Below are positions 21,459-62,839 of a stretch of 64,000 bases of DNA, in pieces. The stretch is from a virus: positions 1 to 64,000 of the IMG/VR virus record IMGVR_UViG_3300008954_000046. One strand, 5' to 3'. Position 1 is the stretch's first letter, and every line of letters starts with the position of its first letter. The position numbers were made by a program, and so were the translations under genes. The notes beneath the pieces were generated by a model. It worked only from the letters and a program-made list of their open reading frames with translations, did no database searches and was not told where the DNA came from.

Positions 21459-24400
21459 ATGGCAAATGGGAATAACACATATTCTTCACAAGCATCTAGT
21501 GGGTTAGATAGTTTTAGTGATGGTTTAGTTGGAAATCAATTTACAGATGGAACTACTCAGTTTAGTCTAGGTAATTTTGGTATTTCCATGTCTGTTACCG
21601 ATAAAGATAGTCGAGAATTTTCTTTAGGTAATTTTTCAGAACCAATCACTTTAGACAGTCTTAATTTTAGTAATGCACAAGAAGCAAAAACCTTAGTAAA
21701 TAATAGTTTAACTACTTTTATTAATTTTGATAGAAGTAAAATTACTAACTTTACTCTATATGGTTCCCTCGCAGAACGACTTAGAGTTGCGACCCAAAAT
21801 ATAATTAAAAAATTTCCAGCTGCAATTGTAGTTAATCGAATAAGACGAGATTATCTAACAGGGGTCACCGCTACTAATATCGTCTTTGACCCAACAGAAA
21901 ATGAAACCACATTAGATGTTAACATATCCCAAATGTCGAATCCATTTGCGATAGAGTACACAAGAATGGGGAATTTATTCTTTACTGGTACTACCGAAGG
22001 GGTTGATGAGATTCGTAATATGACTAAAAATTATTCTAAGTATAGTTTATTTTTAGGTAGTAGGGAATTTGAGATAGAAGTAATGACACCTGCGACGTCT
22101 AATACTTCAGGTAATTTAAATATTACGGTAAAAGGTAATCCATTTAGTGGAGCAAGTTTTGTAACTCAACAACTAATACTTAAACCTAATACACCTCAAA
22201 CAGAAGAAATATTTAAAAAGTTAGATGATGTAGAACAATATTTGTTGAATAGGACAAGTACTCCTATTTATACCTCGAGTTTTAAGGTGTTAAGAGAAAC
22301 TAATAGTGGTAAATTAGTAAGTTCGACAAAGAATTTAACGTGGCCTTTACAAGATACTTGGAATATTTTGATAGAAGGTGCACCATTTACAAATTATTTA
22401 GGGAGACTAAATGATATTGCTATTACTTTTGACGACTACAAAACTAACCTAGTCTCTCGTTTTTTAACTACGGGAGCACTTAAAGAATTTGATACGGAAA
22501 ACCAAGGATTTGAAAAGATATTACAAGTTTACGGAAGAAGTTTTGACCAAGTTAAAAAATATATAGACGGATTAGCTTACATGACCAATGTTAGTTATGA
22601 CGGTATAAATAATATCCCAGATACTCTATTAAAGAATTTAGCACGCATGTTGGGGTGGGGAACACCAAGTTCCATCCAACAAGTTAACTTTTTAGACTCG
22701 ATTTTTAATAGAGGTGGGGCAGAAGAATTTAAGGGGGAATCTACTAATAGTACCCCAGCAGAGTTGGACGTTGAACTCTATAGAAAAATTTTAGTTAACA
22801 CTGCTTATCTTTTTAAATCAAAGGGAACAAGAAAATCTATAGAATTCTTATTACGATTGGTGGGTGCACCAGAAGCATTAATTGAATTTAATGAACATGT
22901 TTATGTGGCTGGAAACCGTATAAATATGAATAAATTTGATAGTACTATTGAAAGTTTCTCGGGTGGAACCTACGTAGAGTCTATCCCTGTAGAAAGACAA
23001 TATTATAGTGCAGTTACTGATTCACTAACCTTCCCACCAACGGTGGTGACAGGATTTACGTTTGGAACAGAAAAAGTAACTTTACCAGTCACTGCTACTA
23101 GAGACCAATATCCAGTAGGGAAAGATGGTTATCCTAAACCACCTAAATTTAATAAAGACGGATACTTCCAATCAGGAGCTGGATGGTTTGAAAGAACACC
23201 AGAACATAAAAGCGACCAAGTAGTTAATGCAAAAAAATCCATTTTTACTGGTGACACCCCAGATATAAAAACACAATTTGCTCCTTTTACATACGGAGAA
23301 AAATATTTAGATTATCTCAGAAAATTCCCTGATATGAAAATGGGATTCGATTTAGTTAAAACTGTAGATAATAAAAAATCATGGGTACAAGTCGACCCAA
23401 GAAAAACTAATGAGAGTTTTAGAAACCTAGCAAATAGACAATCTGTTCTTAATACTCGCGGAACCAAATATCATGTAGATTCCGATAGACAAGTATTAAA
23501 TGTAAAGAATATAGAGTTATTCTTGAATGTAGGACAAGGATTAGAATGGGATGTATGGAACACTTCTAGTAAATTTGGTTGTCTATATGGACTTACCCCT
23601 CTAGGAGATATAACAACACCTGGGATATTCCCACCACAATACTTATATCCATCTCCAGGTGGTCCAGATTGGACTACAATTCAGATAGACGCTTCTAAAT
23701 TATCATTTTTTGAATTTGCAGAAAATTTTTGGAAAATCCACATAAATGTAAAAAACAGACAAACTATAGATGACGGACATGGAGGGGGTTATCCTACTCT
23801 ACAAATGGTTTATTTAGATTATTTAAACAGTAATAAAGTATGTGGTATTCCTAATAACAAATACACTTACGAAAAAATGTTAGACTTCGTAGATGGAATT
23901 AGTGATTATTGGGTGAGATTAATAGAACAAATGGTTCCTGCTACTACAATTTGGCAAGGAGGAGTAAAAATAGAAAATTCTGCTTTTCATAGATATAAAT
24001 ACGCGTATAAACATGAACCAGTCTGTGATGATTTACCGTGTTTGGGGTCTTTTGTGGAGTGTGTGGGGCCTAATTTTAATGAGGTACTCGTAAATGGGTT
24101 TATAGCGTCGGAAGGAATTAAGTTTAGTGGAGCAGGATGGTATAATAAAATAACATTAAACGGACAAGAATATACAGGAACATTAGGGCATAATTATATC
24201 TACTATAGTAGTACTACAATTAGTGACATACCAAGTACAGATGCATGGTTGGATAATATGGTGTCTATCTTAAGTGGTATAACAGGTCAATGTTTTAATT
24301 ATTATGTTTTTGATGATACAACTACAGGAGCACCACCTATCACCAACCCAAGGACATTAGTACTCCAAGGGTGTTGTGAAGGGGGAGTAGATTTATGGAA

Positions 24401-27400
24401 TTATAATACTGGTCCAAGCCCAGGTACTTTTATGGCAGAGACATGTCTAGAATTAGATGTAGTACGTGCAAGATTAACCGCGGCAACTGCTAATATTTAC
24501 GCATTCTATGACACTACTTCTTTAAGTGCATCGGTTGCATTTGCGGCAAGACAATCCCTCGATATGTATTCTACTCAAATTAGATTAACTGGTTGGAGTG
24601 GAAAAACTTATCATATACCAGTAGGACAAGAAAGATGGTTAGCTTGGGCTAATTATCCATGGTCAGGTGCTTTATCTGGAACTACAGCGGGAGGACCTTA
24701 TTCTGCATTAAGAACAACAATGCCTAGTGGATGTGTAGGACCGCCATGGTTACAAAATGTTACTTCTAGGCACTATTGTGATGTTGATAATGGAGAATTT
24801 GGAGTATTACCATACCAAGCAGATTTAACTGCTAATGGAAATGCAACCTTTAGTGGACAAGATAAGAATGTAATTGTAGTAAGTTTTGCAGATGAGACTG
24901 CACCATATAGGAGCAATAACGCGCTTTCAATCTTTAATGGTTATCATGGAGGTGGTGGTGGAACTATAAGATATGGTGGAAAAGCAAGTTATACAAACGC
25001 AAATGAACAACCAACCATGGGAATCCAAAATGATTGGAACGTAGGGTTTGATGTCACCCCATCTTACCCACAACCTAGACCTGCTTACCAGGAAGATTTT
25101 GATAACTTTAGAGGAGTCTTTAACAACTATAATTATTTTAGGTATTTCCTATACCCAATTATTGAAAATAATTTTACGGCAAAACTACATTTCCCACTTC
25201 AGGTTTATGGTGCAATGACAGGGGACTTTATAACTGGATGTACATGGACTAGTAGAACTGGAGATACATGTACAAATAACTTTGGTGTAGCAATAACTGG
25301 ATATACAGCTACTTCAGGACAGACTGGTTGGCCTGTATATACCTTAGATTGTGTTTATGACGGTTTAACTGGAAGTACGTGTCCATTGTCAAAACGACCA
25401 AATAATCCAGATGGAACTGGATATACTTTATATAGAAAATATAAAACAAAAGTAGTTACGAGTGATTGGGATGTAGGTACAGGTCTCGGTAACTTTACAG
25501 AAAACCCTACAGTAATGGGTGCGGGAGGTACCGTGTCAGCGATTACCACCAACTATAACCCATATACAGGTAGTAGTCTTTCGATGTATAATAGTAAAAC
25601 AGGATATTATGGTCCTGGGTTACAAAACTTTGGTTTCGGATGGAGAGGTAGTTTAGGAACAGAAGGTTGTACAACAGTACAAGGGGTAATTGGAGATGAT
25701 TGTCTACCAGCACCGAATCCATGTTGGGACCCACAGTGTCCTGGTACCTATTATCGTAACAATGGTTGTATGGCAACTGGGGCAGTAGGTGCAAATGGAC
25801 AGGGACTATTTCTTGCAGCGAACCCAATAAATCTTTTCCTAAACTCTGCAGGTGTAAGTGTATTCCAAGAAGACTTAACAGAATTCTTAAAAGCGGATAC
25901 TGAATTATTCTTAGGAGATTATGATTATTGTGAACCTACATGTTCAGAACCTTGTGACCCAGATGCACAAACTGTGTGGATAGGGGGTATAGCATACGAT
26001 AGAGGAGACATAGTACAATATAACAGACATTGTTGGTTAAGTAATGTTTCAGGAAACACTACAACTCCTAACCAGTTAATGGCTTCCTCATTTACAGGTG
26101 AATGTGCAAATGAATTCACCGCAATGACACAAAATAATGCATGGACTCAAATTGATATTTCCCCTCTTAAATTCTTAGGAGGTAATGATTTCAGACCAAG
26201 AGAAGATTGTGAAAGTTTAAAAGAAATACCAGAAAATCCAGAAACTACAGGTACTACAGTTGTTACCGACCCATTGAGTTTTAAAGACGGAATCTTTAAT
26301 ATTGGAGGTCAGGATTGTTATGAGTCAGCTTATTTTAATTGTGATGACCTTGTAAATCCATGTTCATGTGATGATGTTGTAAGTTCAGGACAAACCTACG
26401 ATGCGGGAATAGATGGAAACGGTCACGTTATACAAGCTTCATACACTGTCTACCAACCTGGAGATATTGTATGTTGTGGTGGGGGAACCATGCAAGAAAA
26501 TCAAGCTTATATATTAAGTGACTTTAGTTCCACTACATGGACACCAACTGGATGTACATTCGGAACTACCACTTGTACTGCTCAAGAGTTTAATTTAACT
26601 ATTTGTAATATGGGAACAGGAGGACCCGGTCTTATAAATAATATGGCACAACAATATGGATGTTGGATACCATGTGATAATTTAGGACAAGCTGCAGTAA
26701 TATTAGCGGGTACAGGAATTAGTTTGATAACAAATGCAGTAGACCCATGTGATAATCCTTCAGGCCTGAGACCACCACCACCCGATGATGATGATGGACC
26801 GTGTGTGTGTGATATACTCCCTAGTCAAAAAACTACAGTAGTAGATACATTAGATGGGACGTTCAATCTAATTCCACAACCAGTATTAGATTATAGGATT
26901 GAAGGAACTCAGCTTTTTTACAGTAGTAATGGAGCATATGAACCATTAAGTGCGGTCCCTTCAAACGCATATGAAGCAGCTACTGCACAATATTTCCCAT
27001 GTTGTTTAGGGGATACTATAGAAATAATTCAACATCTATATAATAGCTCCGATAATAATCCAGCAACAACTTATTTAGGTCAGAGAAAATGGAAGATTAA
27101 TGTAGATGCAATGACGTATTTATGGTTATATTTTGTAAGTGGACAGTCTATCCCGGGGACAGACCCAGCAGCCGATAAAGCATACATGAAAATACCAAAA
27201 GACTTCGTAACTTTTAATCCTGCGGACTCTACTATAGTAACCTCTGCGGGTGCATACGAAGGATATCCAGCAACAACAGATTTAGCAGATACTGATATTA
27301 TTCTTTTTATGTCCCCAACTAGTAATCCTGGATATTTTGGATTTGTGAATGGACAAGGAGCTACTTTTACGTCTACAATGGAATATTGGGGTGACCCATC

Positions 27401-30400
27401 CATTCTCACCAACCCAGAACCATTGATGGTTAGAGGTGATATTGACCGTACATATCCTGACTTACCCCCAAGTACCTCAAATCTAAAATATATGTACAAT
27501 ATGGAATTTAATTTCATATGTAATAGTAGTCCCGCAAATAGTGTAGAATTTACTTCTAATCCTATAGGATACAACAGCAGTGCGACTCTTAATGACATTC
27601 CAGAGAGTGAACCATGTCCTACTAATACAAAAGCAGCACTACCTAAAATGGCACCTAGAATGAGTTCTTCTGTAGAGTCACAAGGAGGTATATCCAATCA
27701 AAGAAGTAGTTCTCTAACCGAGACTTCAGGTGAAGGAGGGGTAATCACTTTTGACTATACCAAATATATGAGAAGGTATTATCCAGAACTTAATCCTTCT
27801 GATTATGAAATAGTTAGTGGAAATATTTACGCAGTCTTAAATAATGCTATTTATAAATCATCACAACAAATTCCATATAATCTTACAACCAATGCAGTAG
27901 TTGCACAAGATAGAAAAGGAGTACAAACTTACCTTACTTATAATGATGGTACGGATTACCCTAAGGCTAAGTTAAGATGGATGATGGATGTAGTAACCCA
28001 ATATCCTAATAACACAGTACAATTATTCTTTAGAAATAAAGAAATACAAGATGGGTTTGAATTCTCTTTGAAAGGAAAACAAATTGGAAATGTAGAATAC
28101 TATGATGTATATTATCCTAATTATGATAAACCAGGAAGTTATGGAGCGAGTAGGTTACCACAACTCAACTTTACTTTAAGTGGAGCATCTTTAATAACTG
28201 GAGAATTTTCTTCACCTAGTTATAGTCGTCTTCCAGTAGAGTATAAAAATTTACAAGATTGGGTAGACAGGAGTATAGGTAGTAATCCATTTAATAATAG
28301 TTATGTGAACTACCACCCAAATGGAAAGTTTCACAATTTTGAAATAAGAAGAAATTATACAACACCGATAGGGACAGAAGGTGGAGTTACTTACTACACC
28401 CCACTTAATAATTTAAATGTAGAGATAGTCGCAACCACTTATGGAAATTGGGATACATTTAAGAAAACTTCACCACCAATAAGTGGATTAACAAGTCAGT
28501 ATACTGGTTATACTAATTTATCACCGTATAATAATACTTTGGGAGTTGAAAATCTTACTAGTGATAAGGTATTTGATTTAAACTTTTCTTACACCGCTTT
28601 TACAGGAACAACTGTTATACCAATGAATGGACCTCGTCGAAATGATTCTATTCTTATGGGGGCATCCACTTCTATAACTGCAGCAAAAGTCGCACCAGAA
28701 TCGTTAAGTGAAAATAGTGGACCAGTAAACGTAGTTACTTCCGCTAATACCGATTACATCTACTATAAGGCAAAAAGAGATGGGTTATATAGATTCCAAT
28801 ACCAAGGAGCGGTAACTGTAGATTATTATGATACGGGATGGTGCCAATATTTAGAAAATGCTTATAAAAAGACAACCAATAATACTTACCCAGTTAATGA
28901 TTTACATTATGAAAATTTAATTAATAGTTCAATTCTATATGTAGGAGGTGGGACTGATATTACAACTACTGAAGGATATGTTTCTAACCCCTACACTAAT
29001 ATTCCACCATATAATATGGTGACTCCGACCTATGGTTTTAATAGAGGGGAAGGAATTAACTATTTTGATGCTCAAATTTGGATAGAAAGAAAATTCTCAG
29101 GAGATACAGCAGACGGTGTAGAATATGTTTCGGCTGCGACTCTAAGTAAACAAGCTATTGGTAATAATAGTGAACAATATCCAGATAATAGTAACTTTTT
29201 AACTCTAGAAATTACACCTGCAGATATACTCGCGAATACTTACACAAGTTCAGGGACTACATGTAGTGCAACTACCAGTCTAGTATTTAGTAAAACTATA
29301 GACATTAGTTTAGACACCAAATGTGTTAAATTAAATAAAGGAGACGAAATAAGATTAAAAAATCTAGTTACATGGCATTCTACAAGTAAATCTGGAGGAA
29401 CAACAACATTAGATGTTAGAATAGGAAGTAAAAATGAAATAACCACTTCCGTCTATAAAGGGGTTAAGACAACTGAAACACAGACAAGATACCCATGGTA
29501 TCGAGTAAGTGTAGATGCGTGTAATTTACAAAAAATAAGAAAAAATTTAATATGGGACCCACAACAAAGAGCACAAACACACAGTTGGTTTAATGAATCT
29601 AAGAAAGAAAGCCTCTCCGAATATGGTACTTTATATCTCACCACGTATTTTGAAGGTAAGGATTTAATTGTTCCACCTAGATTGAAGACTCTTAAGGATA
29701 TAAGTAATCTTACTTATTTAGATATACCTAAAGATTATACAGGACCTTTTGATTTACAAATTGTGGCAAAAAGAACCTCTAACTGGAATAAAGCTCTGGA
29801 AGAGGGTAGATTTACAGATGGAATCCAACCACTATCGAGCAAACCATTTAGTTTTAATGGGTTAGAAACCCAATGGACAATGCCTATTTTCACTTCTGAG
29901 GAAGGTAAAATACCACCATTTCCTAATTACTCTCACACATATCTGGTAGAGACACAGTTTAGAGTTAAAGGGACTCCACGAAGTTTTTCTCATGTAGTTG
30001 CATATACTGATGATATAAACACTTCGATAAGTTATTATAATAGAAGTAATGGTTTTAGTAATGTAGAGGCTCCATTAACAGGACAAGACTTTATTGTACA
30101 AAATGAACAACAAGATAAAAGAAAAATGTACTTTAGTCTTACTGACCTTATAATTGAAGGAGAACCATCAGTGATAAAAACTAATAATTATGATTTATAT
30201 TCTACAATGATAGATACAGTACACGAAACTTACGAATGTGAGTGTAGAACGGAAAGAGGAAAACTCATCGCCACCAACCGACTTGCATGCCCAGGGAATA
30301 CTAATTGTATAAAGAAATGTCAAGAGTTTTGTAAAGCGACAAGACCTAGTCAAAAATTAATAGGAAAATTAACCAATCAAGGTATAAACACTAACTCTAA

Positions 30401-30428
30401 CACAGGGAAAGGAAGACTTAATTATTAA
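21459..30428 (+). CDS. giant tail/baseplate protein (2989 residues)
   Basis: This is by far the largest gene in the window. Residues 1-370 are unlike anything I can name. At about 380-480 (LARMLGWGTPSS, then LFKSKGTRKSIEFLLRLVGA) there is a segment resembling the P2 gpI / baseplate-hub tail-protein family, which would tie the N-terminal part to the baseplate. The middle (about 850-1700) is Cys-, Gly- and Thr-rich with two stretches resembling CBM5/12 carbohydrate-binding modules (IAYDRGDIVQYNRHCW near 1512 and YQPGDIVCCGGG near 1664). The last third has few cysteines until a final CX9-type cluster near 2920-2970. It could be a long side fibre or multi-domain receptor-binding arm. Confidence 0.75.
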   Translation: MANGNNTYSSQASSGLDSFSDGLVGNQFTDGTTQFSLGNFGISMSVTDKDSREFSLGNFSEPITLDSLNFSNAQEAKTLVNNSLTTFINFDRSKITNFTLYGSLAERLRVATQNIIKKFPAAIVVNRIRRDYLTGVTATNIVFDPTENETTLDVNISQMSNPFAIEYTRMGNLFFTGTTEGVDEIRNMTKNYSKYSLFLGSREFEIEVMTPATSNTSGNLNITVKGNPFSGASFVTQQLILKPNTPQTEEIFKKLDDVEQYLLNRTSTPIYTSSFKVLRETNSGKLVSSTKNLTWPLQDTWNILIEGAPFTNYLGRLNDIAITFDDYKTNLVSRFLTTGALKEFDTENQGFEKILQVYGRSFDQVKKYIDGLAYMTNVSYDGINNIPDTLLKNLARMLGWGTPSSIQQVNFLDSIFNRGGAEEFKGESTNSTPAELDVELYRKILVNTAYLFKSKGTRKSIEFLLRLVGAPEALIEFNEHVYVAGNRINMNKFDSTIESFSGGTYVESIPVERQYYSAVTDSLTFPPTVVTGFTFGTEKVTLPVTATRDQYPVGKDGYPKPPKFNKDGYFQSGAGWFERTPEHKSDQVVNAKKSIFTGDTPDIKTQFAPFTYGEKYLDYLRKFPDMKMGFDLVKTVDNKKSWVQVDPRKTNESFRNLANRQSVLNTRGTKYHVDSDRQVLNVKNIELFLNVGQGLEWDVWNTSSKFGCLYGLTPLGDITTPGIFPPQYLYPSPGGPDWTTIQIDASKLSFFEFAENFWKIHINVKNRQTIDDGHGGGYPTLQMVYLDYLNSNKVCGIPNNKYTYEKMLDFVDGISDYWVRLIEQMVPATTIWQGGVKIENSAFHRYKYAYKHEPVCDDLPCLGSFVECVGPNFNEVLVNGFIASEGIKFSGAGWYNKITLNGQEYTGTLGHNYIYYSSTTISDIPSTDAWLDNMVSILSGITGQCFNYYVFDDTTTGAPPITNPRTLVLQGCCEGGVDLWNYNTGPSPGTFMAETCLELDVVRARLTAATANIYAFYDTTSLSASVAFAARQSLDMYSTQIRLTGWSGKTYHIPVGQERWLAWANYPWSGALSGTTAGGPYSALRTTMPSGCVGPPWLQNVTSRHYCDVDNGEFGVLPYQADLTANGNATFSGQDKNVIVVSFADETAPYRSNNALSIFNGYHGGGGGTIRYGGKASYTNANEQPTMGIQNDWNVGFDVTPSYPQPRPAYQEDFDNFRGVFNNYNYFRYFLYPIIENNFTAKLHFPLQVYGAMTGDFITGCTWTSRTGDTCTNNFGVAITGYTATSGQTGWPVYTLDCVYDGLTGSTCPLSKRPNNPDGTGYTLYRKYKTKVVTSDWDVGTGLGNFTENPTVMGAGGTVSAITTNYNPYTGSSLSMYNSKTGYYGPGLQNFGFGWRGSLGTEGCTTVQGVIGDDCLPAPNPCWDPQCPGTYYRNNGCMATGAVGANGQGLFLAANPINLFLNSAGVSVFQEDLTEFLKADTELFLGDYDYCEPTCSEPCDPDAQTVWIGGIAYDRGDIVQYNRHCWLSNVSGNTTTPNQLMASSFTGECANEFTAMTQNNAWTQIDISPLKFLGGNDFRPREDCESLKEIPENPETTGTTVVTDPLSFKDGIFNIGGQDCYESAYFNCDDLVNPCSCDDVVSSGQTYDAGIDGNGHVIQASYTVYQPGDIVCCGGGTMQENQAYILSDFSSTTWTPTGCTFGTTTCTAQEFNLTICNMGTGGPGLINNMAQQYGCWIPCDNLGQAAVILAGTGISLITNAVDPCDNPSGLRPPPPDDDDGPCVCDILPSQKTTVVDTLDGTFNLIPQPVLDYRIEGTQLFYSSNGAYEPLSAVPSNAYEAATAQYFPCCLGDTIEIIQHLYNSSDNNPATTYLGQRKWKINVDAMTYLWLYFVSGQSIPGTDPAADKAYMKIPKDFVTFNPADSTIVTSAGAYEGYPATTDLADTDIILFMSPTSNPGYFGFVNGQGATFTSTMEYWGDPSILTNPEPLMVRGDIDRTYPDLPPSTSNLKYMYNMEFNFICNSSPANSVEFTSNPIGYNSSATLNDIPESEPCPTNTKAALPKMAPRMSSSVESQGGISNQRSSSLTETSGEGGVITFDYTKYMRRYYPELNPSDYEIVSGNIYAVLNNAIYKSSQQIPYNLTTNAVVAQDRKGVQTYLTYNDGTDYPKAKLRWMMDVVTQYPNNTVQLFFRNKEIQDGFEFSLKGKQIGNVEYYDVYYPNYDKPGSYGASRLPQLNFTLSGASLITGEFSSPSYSRLPVEYKNLQDWVDRSIGSNPFNNSYVNYHPNGKFHNFEIRRNYTTPIGTEGGVTYYTPLNNLNVEIVATTYGNWDTFKKTSPPISGLTSQYTGYTNLSPYNNTLGVENLTSDKVFDLNFSYTAFTGTTVIPMNGPRRNDSILMGASTSITAAKVAPESLSENSGPVNVVTSANTDYIYYKAKRDGLYRFQYQGAVTVDYYDTGWCQYLENAYKKTTNNTYPVNDLHYENLINSSILYVGGGTDITTTEGYVSNPYTNIPPYNMVTPTYGFNRGEGINYFDAQIWIERKFSGDTADGVEYVSAATLSKQAIGNNSEQYPDNSNFLTLEITPADILANTYTSSGTTCSATTSLVFSKTIDISLDTKCVKLNKGDEIRLKNLVTWHSTSKSGGTTTLDVRIGSKNEITTSVYKGVKTTETQTRYPWYRVSVDACNLQKIRKNLIWDPQQRAQTHSWFNESKKESLSEYGTLYLTTYFEGKDLIVPPRLKTLKDISNLTYLDIPKDYTGPFDLQIVAKRTSNWNKALEEGRFTDGIQPLSSKPFSFNGLETQWTMPIFTSEEGKIPPFPNYSHTYLVETQFRVKGTPRSFSHVVAYTDDINTSISYYNRSNGFSNVEAPLTGQDFIVQNEQQDKRKMYFSLTDLIIEGEPSVIKTNNYDLYSTMIDTVHETYECECRTERGKLIATNRLACPGNTNCIKKCQEFCKATRPSQKLIGKLTNQGINTNSNTGKGRLNY

Positions 30429-52519: not shown

Positions 52520-52551
52520 GTCTACCCCTAGTGGTACACTTATTGTATAAC

Positions 52552-52566
52552 CTTTATATAAAAAAC
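52552..52566 (+). promoter_or_regulatory. CTTTATATAAAAAAC element upstream of sigma gene
   Basis: This element lies 4-18 bases before the chosen ATG of the sigma factor and matches the recurring TTATATAAAA-type element. A TATAAC word at 52546-52551 lies just upstream. Either could be a promoter core. Confidence 0.4.
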
Positions 52567-52569
52567 TAT

Positions 52570-53370
52570 ATGCGAAAATCAAGAACTTACATAAATCAAG
52601 ACGAAATACAACATTATCTTAAAGATGTTAGAAAGTTGAAAGTATTAACACCTGCTCGAGAAAAAGAACTATCTAAAATAATTCAGAGTAAAGATGTTAC
52701 CACACAACAAAAAGACTCTATTGAAAGAGAATTAATGGAAGGAAACTTACGTTTTGTTATTAGTGTGGCCAAAGATTATCAAAATCAAGGAATTGATTTG
52801 CCAGACTTAATAGCAGAAGGAAATATCGGTTTAATGAAGGCCATCAACAATTTTGATTGGGCCCGAGGATATAGATTTATTTCATATGCGGTATGGTGGA
52901 TTAAACAATCCATTCTCCAATCACTAAATGAACATGCACGAACAATTAGACTTCCAGCAAACATAGTACAGGAATTACATAGAGCTAAAAAAGCTGTAGA
53001 TGGAGAAGTTTCTCAACTACAAGGTAAACTGAGTATGTTACCTACCACCATTAATTTAAGTAAACCTATAAACGAAGATGGAGACACTCTAATCGAACTA
53101 ATACCTAATGACCAATCAGACGCACCAGACGCTCAATATTTTAATAATGATAGTTTAAAACAAGAATTAATTGAAATTATGTCAGTATTAGATGAGAGGG
53201 AAGGGGTAATTGTTAAAGAATATTTTGGACTAGTAGGTTACCCTAAAACACTAGCAGAAATAGGAGAAGACTTTAGTTTAACAAAAGAAAGGGTAAGACA
53301 AATTAAAGAAAAAGCTTTAAGAAAATTAAGAAATGAGAGTGAAACTTTACTTGACTACATGAGCCGTTAA
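52570..53370 (+). CDS. RNA polymerase sigma factor, RpoD-like (short Bacteroidetes form)
   Basis: This 266-residue protein should redirect host RNA polymerase to phage promoters. Region 1.2 (DEIQHYLKDVRKLKVLTPAR) is at 10-29. Region 2 is complete (LRFVISVAKDYQNQG; PDLIAEGNIGLMKA; ISYAVWWIKQSILQ, residues about 60-125), and region 4 has TLAEIGEDFSLTKERVRQIK near the C-terminus. Region 3 is cut down to a short linker (residues 135-180). T4 uses the much smaller, divergent gp55, so this primary-type sigma is unusual in a T4-like phage. I chose ATG 52570 over the in-frame GTG 52531, because the region between holds promoter-like DNA. Confidence 0.9.
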   Translation: MRKSRTYINQDEIQHYLKDVRKLKVLTPAREKELSKIIQSKDVTTQQKDSIERELMEGNLRFVISVAKDYQNQGIDLPDLIAEGNIGLMKAINNFDWARGYRFISYAVWWIKQSILQSLNEHARTIRLPANIVQELHRAKKAVDGEVSQLQGKLSMLPTTINLSKPINEDGDTLIELIPNDQSDAPDAQYFNNDSLKQELIEIMSVLDEREGVIVKEYFGLVGYPKTLAEIGEDFSLTKERVRQIKEKALRKLRNESETLLDYMSR

Positions 53371-57870: not shown

Positions 57871-59262
57871 ATGGCTTATAAAGTGAAAAATAAAAAGAAA
57901 AATTTAAAAGAATCTGTAAACGAGTTGGTTGCGAAGGATGTTAAAAAAGAAATTACTCTTAATGCATTAAAAAATAGATTAAAAGAGGCTACCAAAAAAG
58001 ACAGTATTCCTGGATTAGCAGTGACTGCTAAAGTACACAAACAAGCAGGTAGAGATAATAAGGAAGGAGTAGATACTATAGTTAAAAAGATTAAAGACTA
58101 CCTTAAATATAAAAATAATAGTAACCCTGAATTTCCACATCAAAATAATTCAAAAACAGATTATGAGTCTCCAATGTATAGAAATAGTACAGACCAAGAA
58201 GACTATATTGATACTTGGAGAGGAGGTGGAATGACAGACTTACAATATGATACTGAACCATCAGATGAGTTTAAAGAAAGATTTAAACAATATCTTGACG
58301 GGTCAATCGAAACGGGCAATAATGATGGTAAAGGGTCCGATGGACAACAAGTTGCAAACGTAGTTCCAAGTGAATTAGGTAAAAAGATTCAGAAGACCAT
58401 GAAAGCTAAACATAAGAAATTACAAGGACCAGACGGATACGCAATTCCAAACGATTGGACACAACATCCTAATCCTGGGTTTATTCCTGAAAGTATAAAA
58501 AAACTACAAGTTATTAGAGAACAATGGCAAGAAGTGGAGATGAATGAACAAGGAGAAGAACAGACAACGAAAGGAGAAGACACAGGAAAGAAACAAAGAG
58601 TATTTCGTGGGACACAAGAATTACCAACACAACCAAAAGTATTTATTGCGAAGATACAAGAGTATTGTAAGGCAGTAAAGAACTACAAGAATATACAAGC
58701 AGATGGTAAAATGAATCCTACAACAGTAGAGTGTATTAAAGAAATTCAAAGAGAGTTGGGTATTCCAGTAGATGGTAAATTAGGTAAAAAAACAGAAAAA
58801 GCACTTATGAAATTAGTTCATAAGAAAGGTGTTGTTAATGAATTAGAAATAAAACTTCCATTATCTGGTGATATTTCCCTAGGTGGTGATATTGGATTGG
58901 GAGGGGATATTGATGTAAGTGCATTAAGTGATAATCCAGGAGCTGATTTTGATTACGACGCAGATTTAGATATGTTTAACGATGCAGAATTAGGTCCAGG
59001 ACCTGATTTAACCAATATTAAATCTTTAGAAGGTGATACGGACCCTAATGTGAGTTTAGGTTGGGCTTCTGATGATGATGCTAGTGAGGATGGAGAAGAA
59101 GGTGAGGAAGAAGAAAGAATTACTAGTGGTCTCTTAAAAGATAGAAACTTAGATGGAAAAGATTCGACGGAGGAAGAAGAAGTTGTAACCATTAGTGAAA
59201 GTGTAAGTCACGATATGGATAACATCAAACATTTATTCACTTATAATAAGAAAACACAGTAA
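57871..59262 (+). CDS. protein with peptidoglycan-binding-like domain
   Basis: This 463-residue protein has a Lys-rich helical N-terminus (LKESVNELVAKDVKKEITLN). A region at about 250-325 resembles the PG_binding_1 fold: NIQADGKMNPTTVECIKEIQ, then LGIPVDGKLGKKTEKALMKL. The last 140 residues are acidic, Asp/Gly-rich with a GGDIGLGGDI repeat and a run of Glu. There is no catalytic domain, so it may anchor a virion or lysis protein to the cell wall. The gene is followed by a 37-base gap with a TATAAT word. Confidence 0.7.
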   Translation: MAYKVKNKKKNLKESVNELVAKDVKKEITLNALKNRLKEATKKDSIPGLAVTAKVHKQAGRDNKEGVDTIVKKIKDYLKYKNNSNPEFPHQNNSKTDYESPMYRNSTDQEDYIDTWRGGGMTDLQYDTEPSDEFKERFKQYLDGSIETGNNDGKGSDGQQVANVVPSELGKKIQKTMKAKHKKLQGPDGYAIPNDWTQHPNPGFIPESIKKLQVIREQWQEVEMNEQGEEQTTKGEDTGKKQRVFRGTQELPTQPKVFIAKIQEYCKAVKNYKNIQADGKMNPTTVECIKEIQRELGIPVDGKLGKKTEKALMKLVHKKGVVNELEIKLPLSGDISLGGDIGLGGDIDVSALSDNPGADFDYDADLDMFNDAELGPGPDLTNIKSLEGDTDPNVSLGWASDDDASEDGEEGEEEERITSGLLKDRNLDGKDSTEEEEVVTISESVSHDMDNIKHLFTYNKKTQ

Positions 59263-59299: not shown

Positions 59300-59767
59300 A
59301 TGGAAGGAAGAAAATTTACCCCACATGAATTCTTAAGGTATATAGCCGAACCCTTAAATCAGAAGGACGTTGATTTATGGATAAAAGCTAATGGCATGAC
59401 TCTAGAAATGTCCAATCTCTTTTTTGATTTCATTAATTCTTTATACAATTTAGTTAATACTACTTATTTGGGGCCAGACGCGGTAATTACACCAGAAGAC
59501 CAACAGAATCATTTTAATTGGTGTTGGGATAAGGTAGTTAGTAATTTTAAAAAAGAATGTATCTACTTTAATAAAGATGGAAATCATTATGATTACTTTT
59601 GGGTGTTTTTTGAAGACACCTTCTATAAGAATCCTAGTCCAGTATTAATGAAAAAAGTGGAGGACTTCTTTAAAGTATTATTTGCACCCTCCACCAAAAA
59701 AACCAAATCCGAATTAGATATTTACACAGAAATGTATAAAATGTTAGAAAACAATCTAAAATATTGA
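59300..59767 (+). CDS. hypothetical protein
   Basis: This 155-residue protein is rich in aromatic residues (DYFWVFFEDTFYKNPSPVLM; NHFNWCWDKVV) and is probably all-helical. No family is recognised. A TATAAT word at 59288-59293 lies 7 bases ahead of the ATG but has no good -35 match. Its stop (59765-59767) falls within the -35 element of the next transcription unit. Confidence 0.65.
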   Translation: MEGRKFTPHEFLRYIAEPLNQKDVDLWIKANGMTLEMSNLFFDFINSLYNLVNTTYLGPDAVITPEDQQNHFNWCWDKVVSNFKKECIYFNKDGNHYDYFWVFFEDTFYKNPSPVLMKKVEDFFKVLFAPSTKKTKSELDIYTEMYKMLENNLKY

Positions 59768-59792
59768 CAACCACTATATTTTAGGTTATAAT
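59764..59792 (+). promoter_or_regulatory. perfect sigma70-type promoter
   Basis: TTGACA (59764-59769), a 17-base spacer and TATAAT (59787-59792) match the textbook sigma70 consensus at every position. The TTGACA overlaps the stop codon of the upstream gene. Transcription would begin near 59799, a few bases before ATG 59812. Bacteroidetes primary sigma factors do not usually use this consensus, so the phage sigma factor may read it. Confidence 0.7.
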
Positions 59793-59811
59793 TGTGAATA
59801 AAAACTATATT

Positions 59812-60030
59812 ATGAATAAAAGATTGTTTGAAATAGTAAGTAGTAAGTTAATTGTAGAGAAAAGTCTACTCGAAGGAGAACTAGAAAGAGTTCTACGAGA
59901 GCAAGAGGCTCTTTCCTTTAATGAACTGGCTGACAGAGCAGTAGAACTGAGTAAAAAGATTTCCCAAACAATGACTGCTATAAGCTTATGGGAATCATAT
60001 AATAATAATTTAAATAAAGAAGAAGAATAA
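59812..60030 (+). CDS. small helical protein, unknown
   Basis: I chose ATG 59812 (72 residues: MNKRLFEIVSSKLIVEKSLL). An in-frame GTG at 59794 lies 2 bases after the TATAAT box, before the predicted transcript start, so it cannot be used from that promoter. The protein is a Leu/Glu-rich helix pair (ELERVLREQEALSFNELADR) with no known family. It is the first gene after the consensus promoter and starts a run of small genes. Confidence 0.7.
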   Translation: MNKRLFEIVSSKLIVEKSLLEGELERVLREQEALSFNELADRAVELSKKISQTMTAISLWESYNNNLNKEEE

Positions 60031-60035
60031 ATATT

Positions 60036-60212
60036 ATGGAAACATTAGGTAAACTTAAAGAACTAGTTGAATGTCTATCAGTAGACACAACTAAATTTTT
60101 TGAAAAAGAAAATAAAAGTGCTGGTATTAGAGCAAGAAAATCTGCACAAGATATAAAGGCGTTATGTCAAGAATTAAGAAAAGAGATACTACAAGTATCA
60201 AAAGAAAAATAA
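60036..60212 (+). CDS. histone H1/Hc1-like DNA-binding protein
   Basis: This 58-residue frame begins 5 bases after the previous stop. The segment NKSAGIRARKSAQDIKALCQ (residues 26-45), followed by ELRKEILQVSKEK, closely follows the pattern of the small Bacteroidetes histone H1 / Hc1-like protein, which reads roughly NKAAGTRARK...EI..L..E.RK...SKK. An amphipathic helix (KELVECLSVDTTKFFEKE) precedes it. It would bind and compact DNA. Being below 60 residues it is easily missed. In the phage it might compact phage DNA or modify the host nucleoid. The family call rests on the motif; the phage role is inferred. Confidence 0.8.
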   Translation: METLGKLKELVECLSVDTTKFFEKENKSAGIRARKSAQDIKALCQELRKEILQVSKEK

Positions 60213-60213
60213 T

Positions 60214-60393
60214 ATGAATGGTTGGGGGTATTTACTGTTTTTTGTATTTAGTATACTAGTTAGTCTATACTTTCTAGGTACCTTTTTATTTAATTTATTA
60301 AGTAACCCTCCTCGTCCTATGAAAATTAGTTATTTAGAACTAGCAGCATTAGGACTTACCATTTCCTATTTTATAACTTATTTAATCCTCTAA
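60214..60393 (+). CDS. small two-helix membrane protein
   Basis: This 59-residue frame starts 1 base after the H1-like stop codon. It consists of two hydrophobic helices (YLLFFVFSILVSLYFLGTFL, residues 6-25, and LELAALGLTISYFITYLIL, 41-59) with a short turn NPPRPMK between. Such two-helix proteins may act as holins, but its place after a probable early promoter does not fit a lysis gene well. Function is unknown. Confidence 0.65.
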   Translation: MNGWGYLLFFVFSILVSLYFLGTFLFNLLSNPPRPMKISYLELAALGLTISYFITYLIL

Positions 60394-60399
60394 TTTATT

Positions 60400-60870
60400 A
60401 TGTATAACCAAATAGACTCATTACTTCCTTTTTTTGCTGGTATTAGATTACATGAAACCTATTTCATTGTAGACCTGAATCTACCAGCGGGATGGGTATT
60501 CAGTGAGGTATATGGAGATAATATTGCGACTAGGGTGAACACTACTTTTGAGAATGGAAACCTATCGGTATCACTATTCTCAACCTTCAACGAAGAAACA
60601 GTAGAAAAGGTACTCGAAGTTGGAAAACTTATCATACAGAATAATGAAGAAAGGGAAGAAAAAGAAAGACTTCTCCAAGTTAAAAAAATGGAATTAGAAA
60701 AACTATTTATAGAAAGTAATTTACAAGATTTAAAAGAAATGTCCTTTACTAAAAATAATATATTAAATAAATCTATATTAAATGACAAAGAAATCCCAAA
60801 AGTACTCAAAGGAGTGGCTCATGAAACAAGTGACAAGAGACCAACAGGAGACAGAGAAACTAAAAAATAA
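60400..60870 (+). CDS. hypothetical protein
   Basis: This 156-residue protein has a globular N-terminal part (LHETYFIVDLNLPAGWVFSE) and a charged helix (QNNEEREEKERLLQVKKMEL). No family is recognised. The last 30 residues lie in DNA that also encodes the start of the next gene in another frame over 89 bases, and their composition (KRPTGDRETKK) looks less protein-like. Either the overlap is real or a sequence change extended this frame. Confidence 0.65.
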   Translation: MYNQIDSLLPFFAGIRLHETYFIVDLNLPAGWVFSEVYGDNIATRVNTTFENGNLSVSLFSTFNEETVEKVLEVGKLIIQNNEEREEKERLLQVKKMELEKLFIESNLQDLKEMSFTKNNILNKSILNDKEIPKVLKGVAHETSDKRPTGDRETKK

Positions 60871-61230: not shown

Positions 61231-61863
61231 TTACTGTGTGTAGTGTTTATATAAGAAGGACCTTTTAAATCCTTTGTTTTCTAAAATCTTATAAAGTTGT
61301 TTTCGTTGAATAGTGGAGAAATCTTTCACTAAGAGACAATTCATAATATTATTTCTTCTAAAATATTTTGCAATACAATCCATAAATCTTTTTGCTTCAT
61401 TTACATTCTTTAAACTAAAAATAGAGAATTCATCATCATTTTGTACAACTATTTTATTATTTAAACTAAAGATTTGGCATACACCTGTTTTAGGAACATA
61501 GGTCTCTATAAAATTTGGTGTTTCTATACGAGAGGAAGTTTGATGGTCATATAAAGATTCTTCTATTTGGTAGGGTTCTACCTCAGTAAAATAGTAATCA
61601 CTTCCTTTTATACTTAACTTTTGCCATCTTCCTAAACTATCTTTTATTAGTTTATCTGGAGTCCTTTCCGACTTTTGAGCAACTAAAGCCAATTCAAATA
61701 CACAAATTTTCTTATTAAGGACATTTATAGGAAAAATAACACTTGTTTTTTTGAGTAATTGTTTATATTTTTGTTTTACTGTTTTTTGCAAGTTAGAACT
61801 AAAAATTAATTTTTTCTTAACTTTATTATTAAACAGAATTATATGGTATTTTTTTGCCTTCAT
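61231..61863 (-). CDS. hypothetical protein (minus strand)
   Basis: This 210-residue protein is basic and mixed alpha/beta ([60 protein letters not shown]). It has no cysteine cluster or membrane segment. I do not recognise it. Its ATG is separated by a single base from the DnaJ ATG on the other strand, so its promoter must lie inside the dnaJ coding region. Confidence 0.7.
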
Positions 61864-61864
61864 T

Positions 61865-62839
61865 ATGAAAAATTATTACGACATACTTGGTGTAAGTAAA
61901 GATTCCACACCAGAACAACTTAAAAAAGCATATCGTTCGCTTTCTCTTAAATATCATCCAGATAAAAATCCAGAGGGGGAAGAAAAGTTTAAAGAGATAT
62001 CCGAAGCTTATTCTGTATTGGGAGATTCAGAAAAAAGAGCTAAATATGATAGAGGTGGTAGTATAAATTTAGAAGACCTTTTTGGGGGTGCTGGAGGAGG
62101 TCCTGACCCATTCGAAGCCTTCCAACAATTTTTTGGAGGAGGGGGACCTAATAGAGGGGCGGCACCTAGAAAATCACGAGGTAGAGATTTAAAGTTAAGT
62201 GTAAGAGTAACCTTAGATGAAACTTACTGGGGAAGAGAAAAGAGTGTTGTGTACCAAAAAAGACAAAGTAATGGTAAGAGATGTCCCCAATGTCACGGTA
62301 ATGGGGTTGTACAACAAATAAGAGGGACTTCTTTTTTTAGGTCCGTCACTCATATAGAATGTCCCGTCTGCCATGGAACTGGTTTCCTAAACGGAGGGGT
62401 AGTAGACCATAAGACTGTTAGCTTTTCTATCCCACGAGGATGTAGTAATGGCCACTTCCTTAAATTAAGAGGAGGAGGTGATGAGGTTTTTAATGGTGTC
62501 GCTGGTGATATGTTATTAATTTTAGAAATACAAGAAACGACCCACCAAAAGAAGAGAGAATTAGATTACTTATATACGACAAACATTTCTCCTATTGAAG
62601 CATTATTAGGTAAAGATTTAACAGTACCCCATTTTGAAGGAAAAATAGTAATAAAAGTTCCACCTCTTTATGACACGACTAAAGCCCTTAAAGCTCACGG
62701 TAAAGGATTCGTTAATGATATGGGTGCGTCTGGGGACATGTATATTCATTTAGAACAGAAGTTACCAAAAAGTTTAAATTTAGAAGAAAAAGAAACACTT
62801 AGAAAATTATTAAAGTCAGAAAATTTTAAAGAAGAATGA
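61865..62839 (+). CDS. dnaJ: DnaJ-like co-chaperone with half zinc domain
   Basis: This 324-residue protein starts with a complete J-domain ([20 protein letters not shown], then KYHPDKNP with HPD at 31-33), which would stimulate host DnaK. A Gly/Phe-rich linker follows (about 70-105). The zinc region has only two CxxCxGxG motifs (CPQCHGNG near 140 and CPVCHGTG near 167), where full DnaJ has four, so one zinc site is expected. The C-terminal substrate-binding domains are present. I chose ATG 61865, since upstream ATG 61751 would add 38 hydrophobic residues encoded opposite the divergent gene. Confidence 0.9.

Follow-up and report, generated by a model that had tools for sequence, protein, structure and literature searches.

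A tail-less Hc1-family (PF07432) gene in a probable Bacteroidota phage and its relatives

The 64,000-nucleotide stretch of viral DNA analysed here (the window; positions 1 to 64,000 of IMG/VR record IMGVR_UViG_3300008954_000046) carries a gene for a 58-aa Hc1 protein (PF07432). This is a genuine gene with a long history in its phage lineage, where it is under purifying selection. Hc1 is also common in large phages, as it was recognized on hundreds of viral contigs, many of them of T4 type (gp23-bearing). At a rough probability of 0.5, the protein is an intracellular nucleic-acid-binding architectural protein with a basic and polar face on its second helix, whose hairpins pair as a dimer.

The Hc1 gene, its neighbours and its promoter

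The gene and its surroundings in the window are arranged as follows.

59300..59767, + strand: 155-aa conserved upstream neighbour (30–58% identity in 30 contigs, L002-L031)
59764..59792, + strand: promoter of sigma-70 type, TTGACA-N17-TATAAT, where the 155-aa gene ends
59812..60030, + strand: small gene, 72 aa from ATG, probably co-transcribed as judged from the sequence (relatives in L003, L009, L012, L014, L016, and others)
60036..60212, + strand: Hc1 (PF07432) gene, 58 aa (Pfam, AlphaFold2 model, homologues in place)
60214..60393, + strand: hydrophobic (membrane) protein, 59 aa, starting 1 nt past the Hc1 stop
60400..60870, + strand: 156-aa conserved neighbour (37 contigs, 7 Hc1 clusters)
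61865..62839, + strand: co-chaperone DnaJ, which marks the common gene order (Pfam DnaJ, 2.1e-26; same place in relatives)

The Hc1 gene runs for 58 codons from ATG to stop. Its translation is METLGKLKELVECLSVDTTKFFEKENKSAGIRARKSAQDIKALCQELRKEILQVSKEK, in which the motifs quoted in a preliminary description of this DNA are present. The profile search suggested there returned PF07432 end to end, with positions 1–56 of the 57 in the profile aligned to residues 1–56 (Pfam, E 3.3e-18; 65.7 bits, with a curated cut-off of 23.5). All 16 of 16 aligned phage proteins also match PF07432 full-length, and the conserved core KF..N..AG.R.RK with R48, near-invariant in 210 proteins, is complete in the window protein. 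On these sequence grounds, the frame can be placed firmly in the Hc1 family. PHROGs and NCBIfam gave no useful match for the 58-aa protein, so automatic phage annotation relying on those alone would miss it. The default minimum gene length of Prodigal is 90 nt, and the previous statement that the gene falls below the cut-off of common gene callers fails for this program.

Searching viral contigs with the window protein alone as query revealed 95 relatives, the best of them 82% identical. In 27 viral contigs (L002-L028), a homologue with 61–82% identity lies at the same position, the place where related phages had been proposed to be searched. The shared order consists of 311-aa, 463-aa, and 155-aa genes upstream, often followed by the 72-aa gene, and of the 59-aa membrane protein, the 156-aa gene, an opposite-strand 210-aa gene, and DnaJ downstream; contig ends account for some absent members. 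The membrane protein is kept beside Hc1 in 35 contigs and 7 Hc1 clusters. For the 155-aa neighbour, no family match was found in Pfam and no relative among named phages when it was used as query. The nearest relative shows 82% identity in Hc1 but only 33–53% in the neighbouring genes. Identities at the three codon positions of the Hc1 gene are 0.74, 0.87, and 0.66, the second position being the most conserved, and the median pairwise dN/dS is 0.25 (NG86), a rough estimate because of the AT-rich DNA. It is the same surroundings in relatives, this ratio, and the codon-position pattern that identify a real gene under purifying selection. A chance frame was rejected on the PF07432 match, the 27 syntenic homologues, and the purifying selection.

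Some other features of the region are recorded here. In the 463-aa protein (57871-59262, + strand), whose gene precedes Hc1 in most of the lineage, a peptidoglycan-binding domain (PF01471) is combined with a long acidic C-terminal region. The 210-aa gene (61231-61865, minus strand) is head to head with DnaJ, with one base between the start codons, and near-abutting starts recur in relatives L002-L008; the promoters of both genes are thus each inside the other gene or elsewhere. The central region of DnaJ seemingly has two CxxCxGxG motifs only, which is half of the usual zinc domain, and its domain match is below the Pfam cut-off. An ORF of 2989 aa (21459-30428, + strand) and the very long frames behind it, which extend to about 39.9 kb, probably code for tail or adhesin proteins.

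The promoter at 59764–59792 is the sole perfect match to TTGACA-N17-TATAAT within the window, where 0.23 are expected, and the earlier claim of a consensus promoter shared with other small genes holds. The pattern TTGAC[AT]-N17-TA..T was found upstream of Hc1 in 19 relatives, either ahead of the 72-aa gene or, in several without that gene, 80–89 bases ahead of Hc1. It occurs in 7 of 1108 other 300-bp windows from the same loci (0.6%) and is absent upstream of Hc1 in eight more distant relatives. The promoter would drive the 72-aa gene and Hc1 together; an alternative GTG start of the 72-aa gene at 59794 would fall at the −10 box. Further upstream, a sigma factor is encoded.

52531..53370, + strand: phage sigma-70-family factor with regions 1.2, 2, and 4 (Pfam regions 2 and 4, E 3.7e-17 and 7.7e-14)

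This factor is a candidate reader of the Hc1 promoter, with the host sigma factor as the alternative. Copies with 60–68% identity were found in 14 of 15 lineage contigs, and in the contigs compared the gene precedes Hc1 by some 6–8 kb. Its true start is probably about 12 codons in. T4 gp55 is not known to have the clear region 4 that the window factor has, a region that could read −35 elements.

Predicted structure and the histone label

The AlphaFold2 model predicts an antiparallel two-helix hairpin for the window Hc1 (helices 2–24 and 27–57, no strands, mean pLDDT 96.2). No solved homologue was found by sequence search, and the fold search in Foldseek gave generic helical hairpins alone, none with E below 0.001; ribosomal and adaptor hairpins are among these weak, non-significant matches. 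Across 115 phage and 95 cellular proteins, K20, F21, N26, A29, G30, R32, R34, K35, and R48 are near-constant, although the invariance of A29, G30, R32, R34, and K35 is partly selection because the AG-R-RK motif was part of the search patterns, while K20, F21, and R48 are mostly free of that effect. Q38, K41, and Q45 are mostly kept in the same 210 proteins. By their spacing of 3–4 in the sequence, positions 34, 38, 41, 45, and 48 of helix 2 are on one face. Hydrophobic positions 33, 37, 40, 44, 47, and 51 lie away from that face and would pack on helix 1.

The window protein has a net charge of +3 and stops at residue 58 without a Lys/Ala-rich tail. Such a C-terminal tail was found in none of the 115 distinct phage members and in one of the 95 cellular ones (L203); the net charge of phage Hc1 proteins ranges from −3 to +6, with 29% at zero or below. 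The Pfam domain has its namesake in chlamydial Hc1 (HctA), which was named for a Lys/Ala-rich C-terminal part resembling eukaryotic H1 and tied to DNA binding, an extension that is absent in the window Hc1. Eukaryotic linker histone H1 is composed of a winged-helix core and Lys-rich tails; it has the name alone in common with the window Hc1, where neither the winged helix nor the tails were found, and no linker-histone family was among the Pfam matches up to E 1. Chlamydial Hc1 is lysine-rich, and DNA begins to be released once its C-terminal portion is cleaved (PMC1403754); according to literature cited in PMC12619734 and PMC1403754, it binds and compacts DNA. A search of the accessible literature on Hc1 function in Bacteroidetes and on DNA binding by tail-less Hc1 found nothing. 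The label "histone H1/Hc1-like" given previously is therefore right in its Hc1 part and was dropped in its H1 part, as there is no linker-histone match, tail, or winged helix. With the tail missing and the charge low or negative, PF07432 membership is firm and the "histone" function is not; "histone H1-like" is mostly a name, and the earlier idea that the protein condenses phage DNA or alters the host nucleoid is no more than a possibility.

Distribution of Hc1 and the source phage

When mostly cellular Hc1s were aligned and used as the query, at least 580 viral stretches were matched. Since Lak megaphages and moraphages carry Hc1 as well, the view that histone-like proteins are rare in phages had to be abandoned. 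The 162 extracted phage Hc1 proteins form 25 clusters at 70% identity. Named phages with Hc1 are Lak megaphages and the uncultured LR756500 (462 kb); their Hc1 is likewise phage-encoded PF07432, but it shows 37–63% identity and has other neighbours. Lak phages infect Prevotella (Bacteroidota). A large phage Hc1 cluster among the matches listed (L220-L249 and similar) has many members with net charge 0 to −3, and in those examined the gene is directly downstream of a gp32-like SSB gene.

PF07432 was also identified in 148 of 247 sampled Bacteroidota genomes, one of them with six copies, and short Hc1 is present in Ignavibacteria and Fibrobacterota. These cellular proteins are mostly 55–72 aa long, with one domain, the motif KF-N-x2-AG-x-R-x-RK, and R48, as in the window, and share about 38–52% identity with most of the window protein. 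Given this occurrence, acquisition of phage Hc1 from Bacteroidota-type hosts is the natural reading. In a tree of 210 sequences, the window phage lineage groups together without strong support and with a few other long-branched phage sequences inside, and proteins of 58 residues give too few columns to date or count transfers. Hc1 on a contig of a Rickettsiales MAG (L092, alphaproteobacterial) groups in the tree with marine T4-type phage Hc1s (L044-L079); this may be a mis-binned phage contig or a hint of another host group.

The source record is a fragment of 66,191 bases. It encodes SSB, UvsX-like recombinase, exonuclease, DnaB-type helicase, ribonucleotide reductase, baseplate wedge, and primase; neither gp23 nor terminase was seen on this 66 kb. 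In the 23 records sampled (22 Hc1-bearing kin and the window's own), T4-type gp23 was found in 19 and terminase in 16, while gp23 was absent from all 14 control genomes. With these counts, host contamination is unlikely as a general explanation of viral Hc1 contigs. The source is a tailed phage, probably of Bacteroidota bacteria.

Phage Hc1 is already in print for one related phage group: four complete moraphage genomes were reported to encode PF07432 (Perez-Hernandez et al. 2025, PMC12619734). Moraphages are described there as large aquatic T4-related phages, most with assigned Bacteroidota hosts and some with DnaJ, with genomes to 307 kb. The window phage has the same Pfam family, DnaJ, and T4-type genes, and the genomes of its kin, at 246 and 298 kb, are comparable in size, which makes it a probable moraphage or a close relative of one. 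The available part of that paper does not take up the gene order, the promoter, the absence of a tail, or how widely Hc1 is spread.

Possible role of tail-less Hc1

In the architectural reading preferred here, two Hc1 hairpins would pair into a four-helix dimer, and the exposed helix-2 residues R32, R34, K35, Q38, K41, Q45, and R48 would contact the DNA backbone, possibly RNA; an exposed face of conserved basic and polar residues points to such nucleic-acid contact. Made from its own sigma-70-type promoter, the protein would act inside the infected cell while DNA is replicated and transcribed, with the phage's or the host's DNA as its target, and would not be a protamine-like capsid filler. 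In other phage lineages, Hc1 is beside SSB, DNA polymerase, UvsX, NrdA, clamp loader, or exonuclease genes. SSB adjoins it at −1 in L220 and at +1 in L032, in L209 it lies between NrdA and DNA polymerase/UvsX, in L051 it is near clamp loader and Hsp20, and it was found near ribonucleotide reductase in L280 and near PhoH in L268. As T4-type genomes are rich in replication genes, these neighbours are support, not proof. Several observations count against the architectural reading: close neighbours of Hc1 in the window lineage are not replication genes, a minor coat protein gene adjoins it in L216, the charge is low with over a quarter of phage members neutral or acidic, and fold matches are to generic hairpins.

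Three other explanations were considered. The phage Hc1 could pair with host Hc1 and alter or block its work on the host nucleoid. The frequency of the family in Bacteroidota genomes, up to six copies in one, would provide a partner, the helical hairpin is suited to pairing, and the same residues are conserved in phage and cell copies; these residues are mostly polar or basic, however, and do not form an obvious pairing face. This explanation is rather unlikely. The missing tail and near-neutral charge would also fit an adaptor that binds RNA or protein and has no DNA role, for which the histone name would be misleading, and the ribosomal and adaptor hairpins among the weak Foldseek matches agree with it. 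Several basic residues are strictly kept on one helix, though, and the chlamydial namesake has a DNA role, which leaves the adaptor similarly doubtful.

More improbable still is a virion protein, packaged with phage DNA and condensing it in the head, as was proposed for moraphage Hc1 by analogy with giant viruses (PMC12619734). Large genomes, up to 298 kb in close kin, and the coat protein neighbour in L216 speak for packaging, whereas the low net charge, lack of a tail, acidic members, and replication neighbourhoods in several other lineages speak against it. An intracellular role on DNA is preferred to capsid filling, at about even odds versus all rivals together. A broader proposal is offered only tentatively and is itself unlikely, namely that tail-less Hc1 serves T4-type phages widely as an architectural protein cooperating with the replication machinery, was recruited several times in phages of Bacteroidota and others, and here has its promoter served by the phage sigma factor.

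The name "histone H1-like" should not be read as a function. A host-type small protein that is kept in hundreds of phage contigs and is more conserved than its neighbours is likely useful in infection. Since no known function was found for tail-less Hc1 in either cells or phages, the phage copies, with replication genes beside them, provide a starting point for working out the role of a common Bacteroidota protein.
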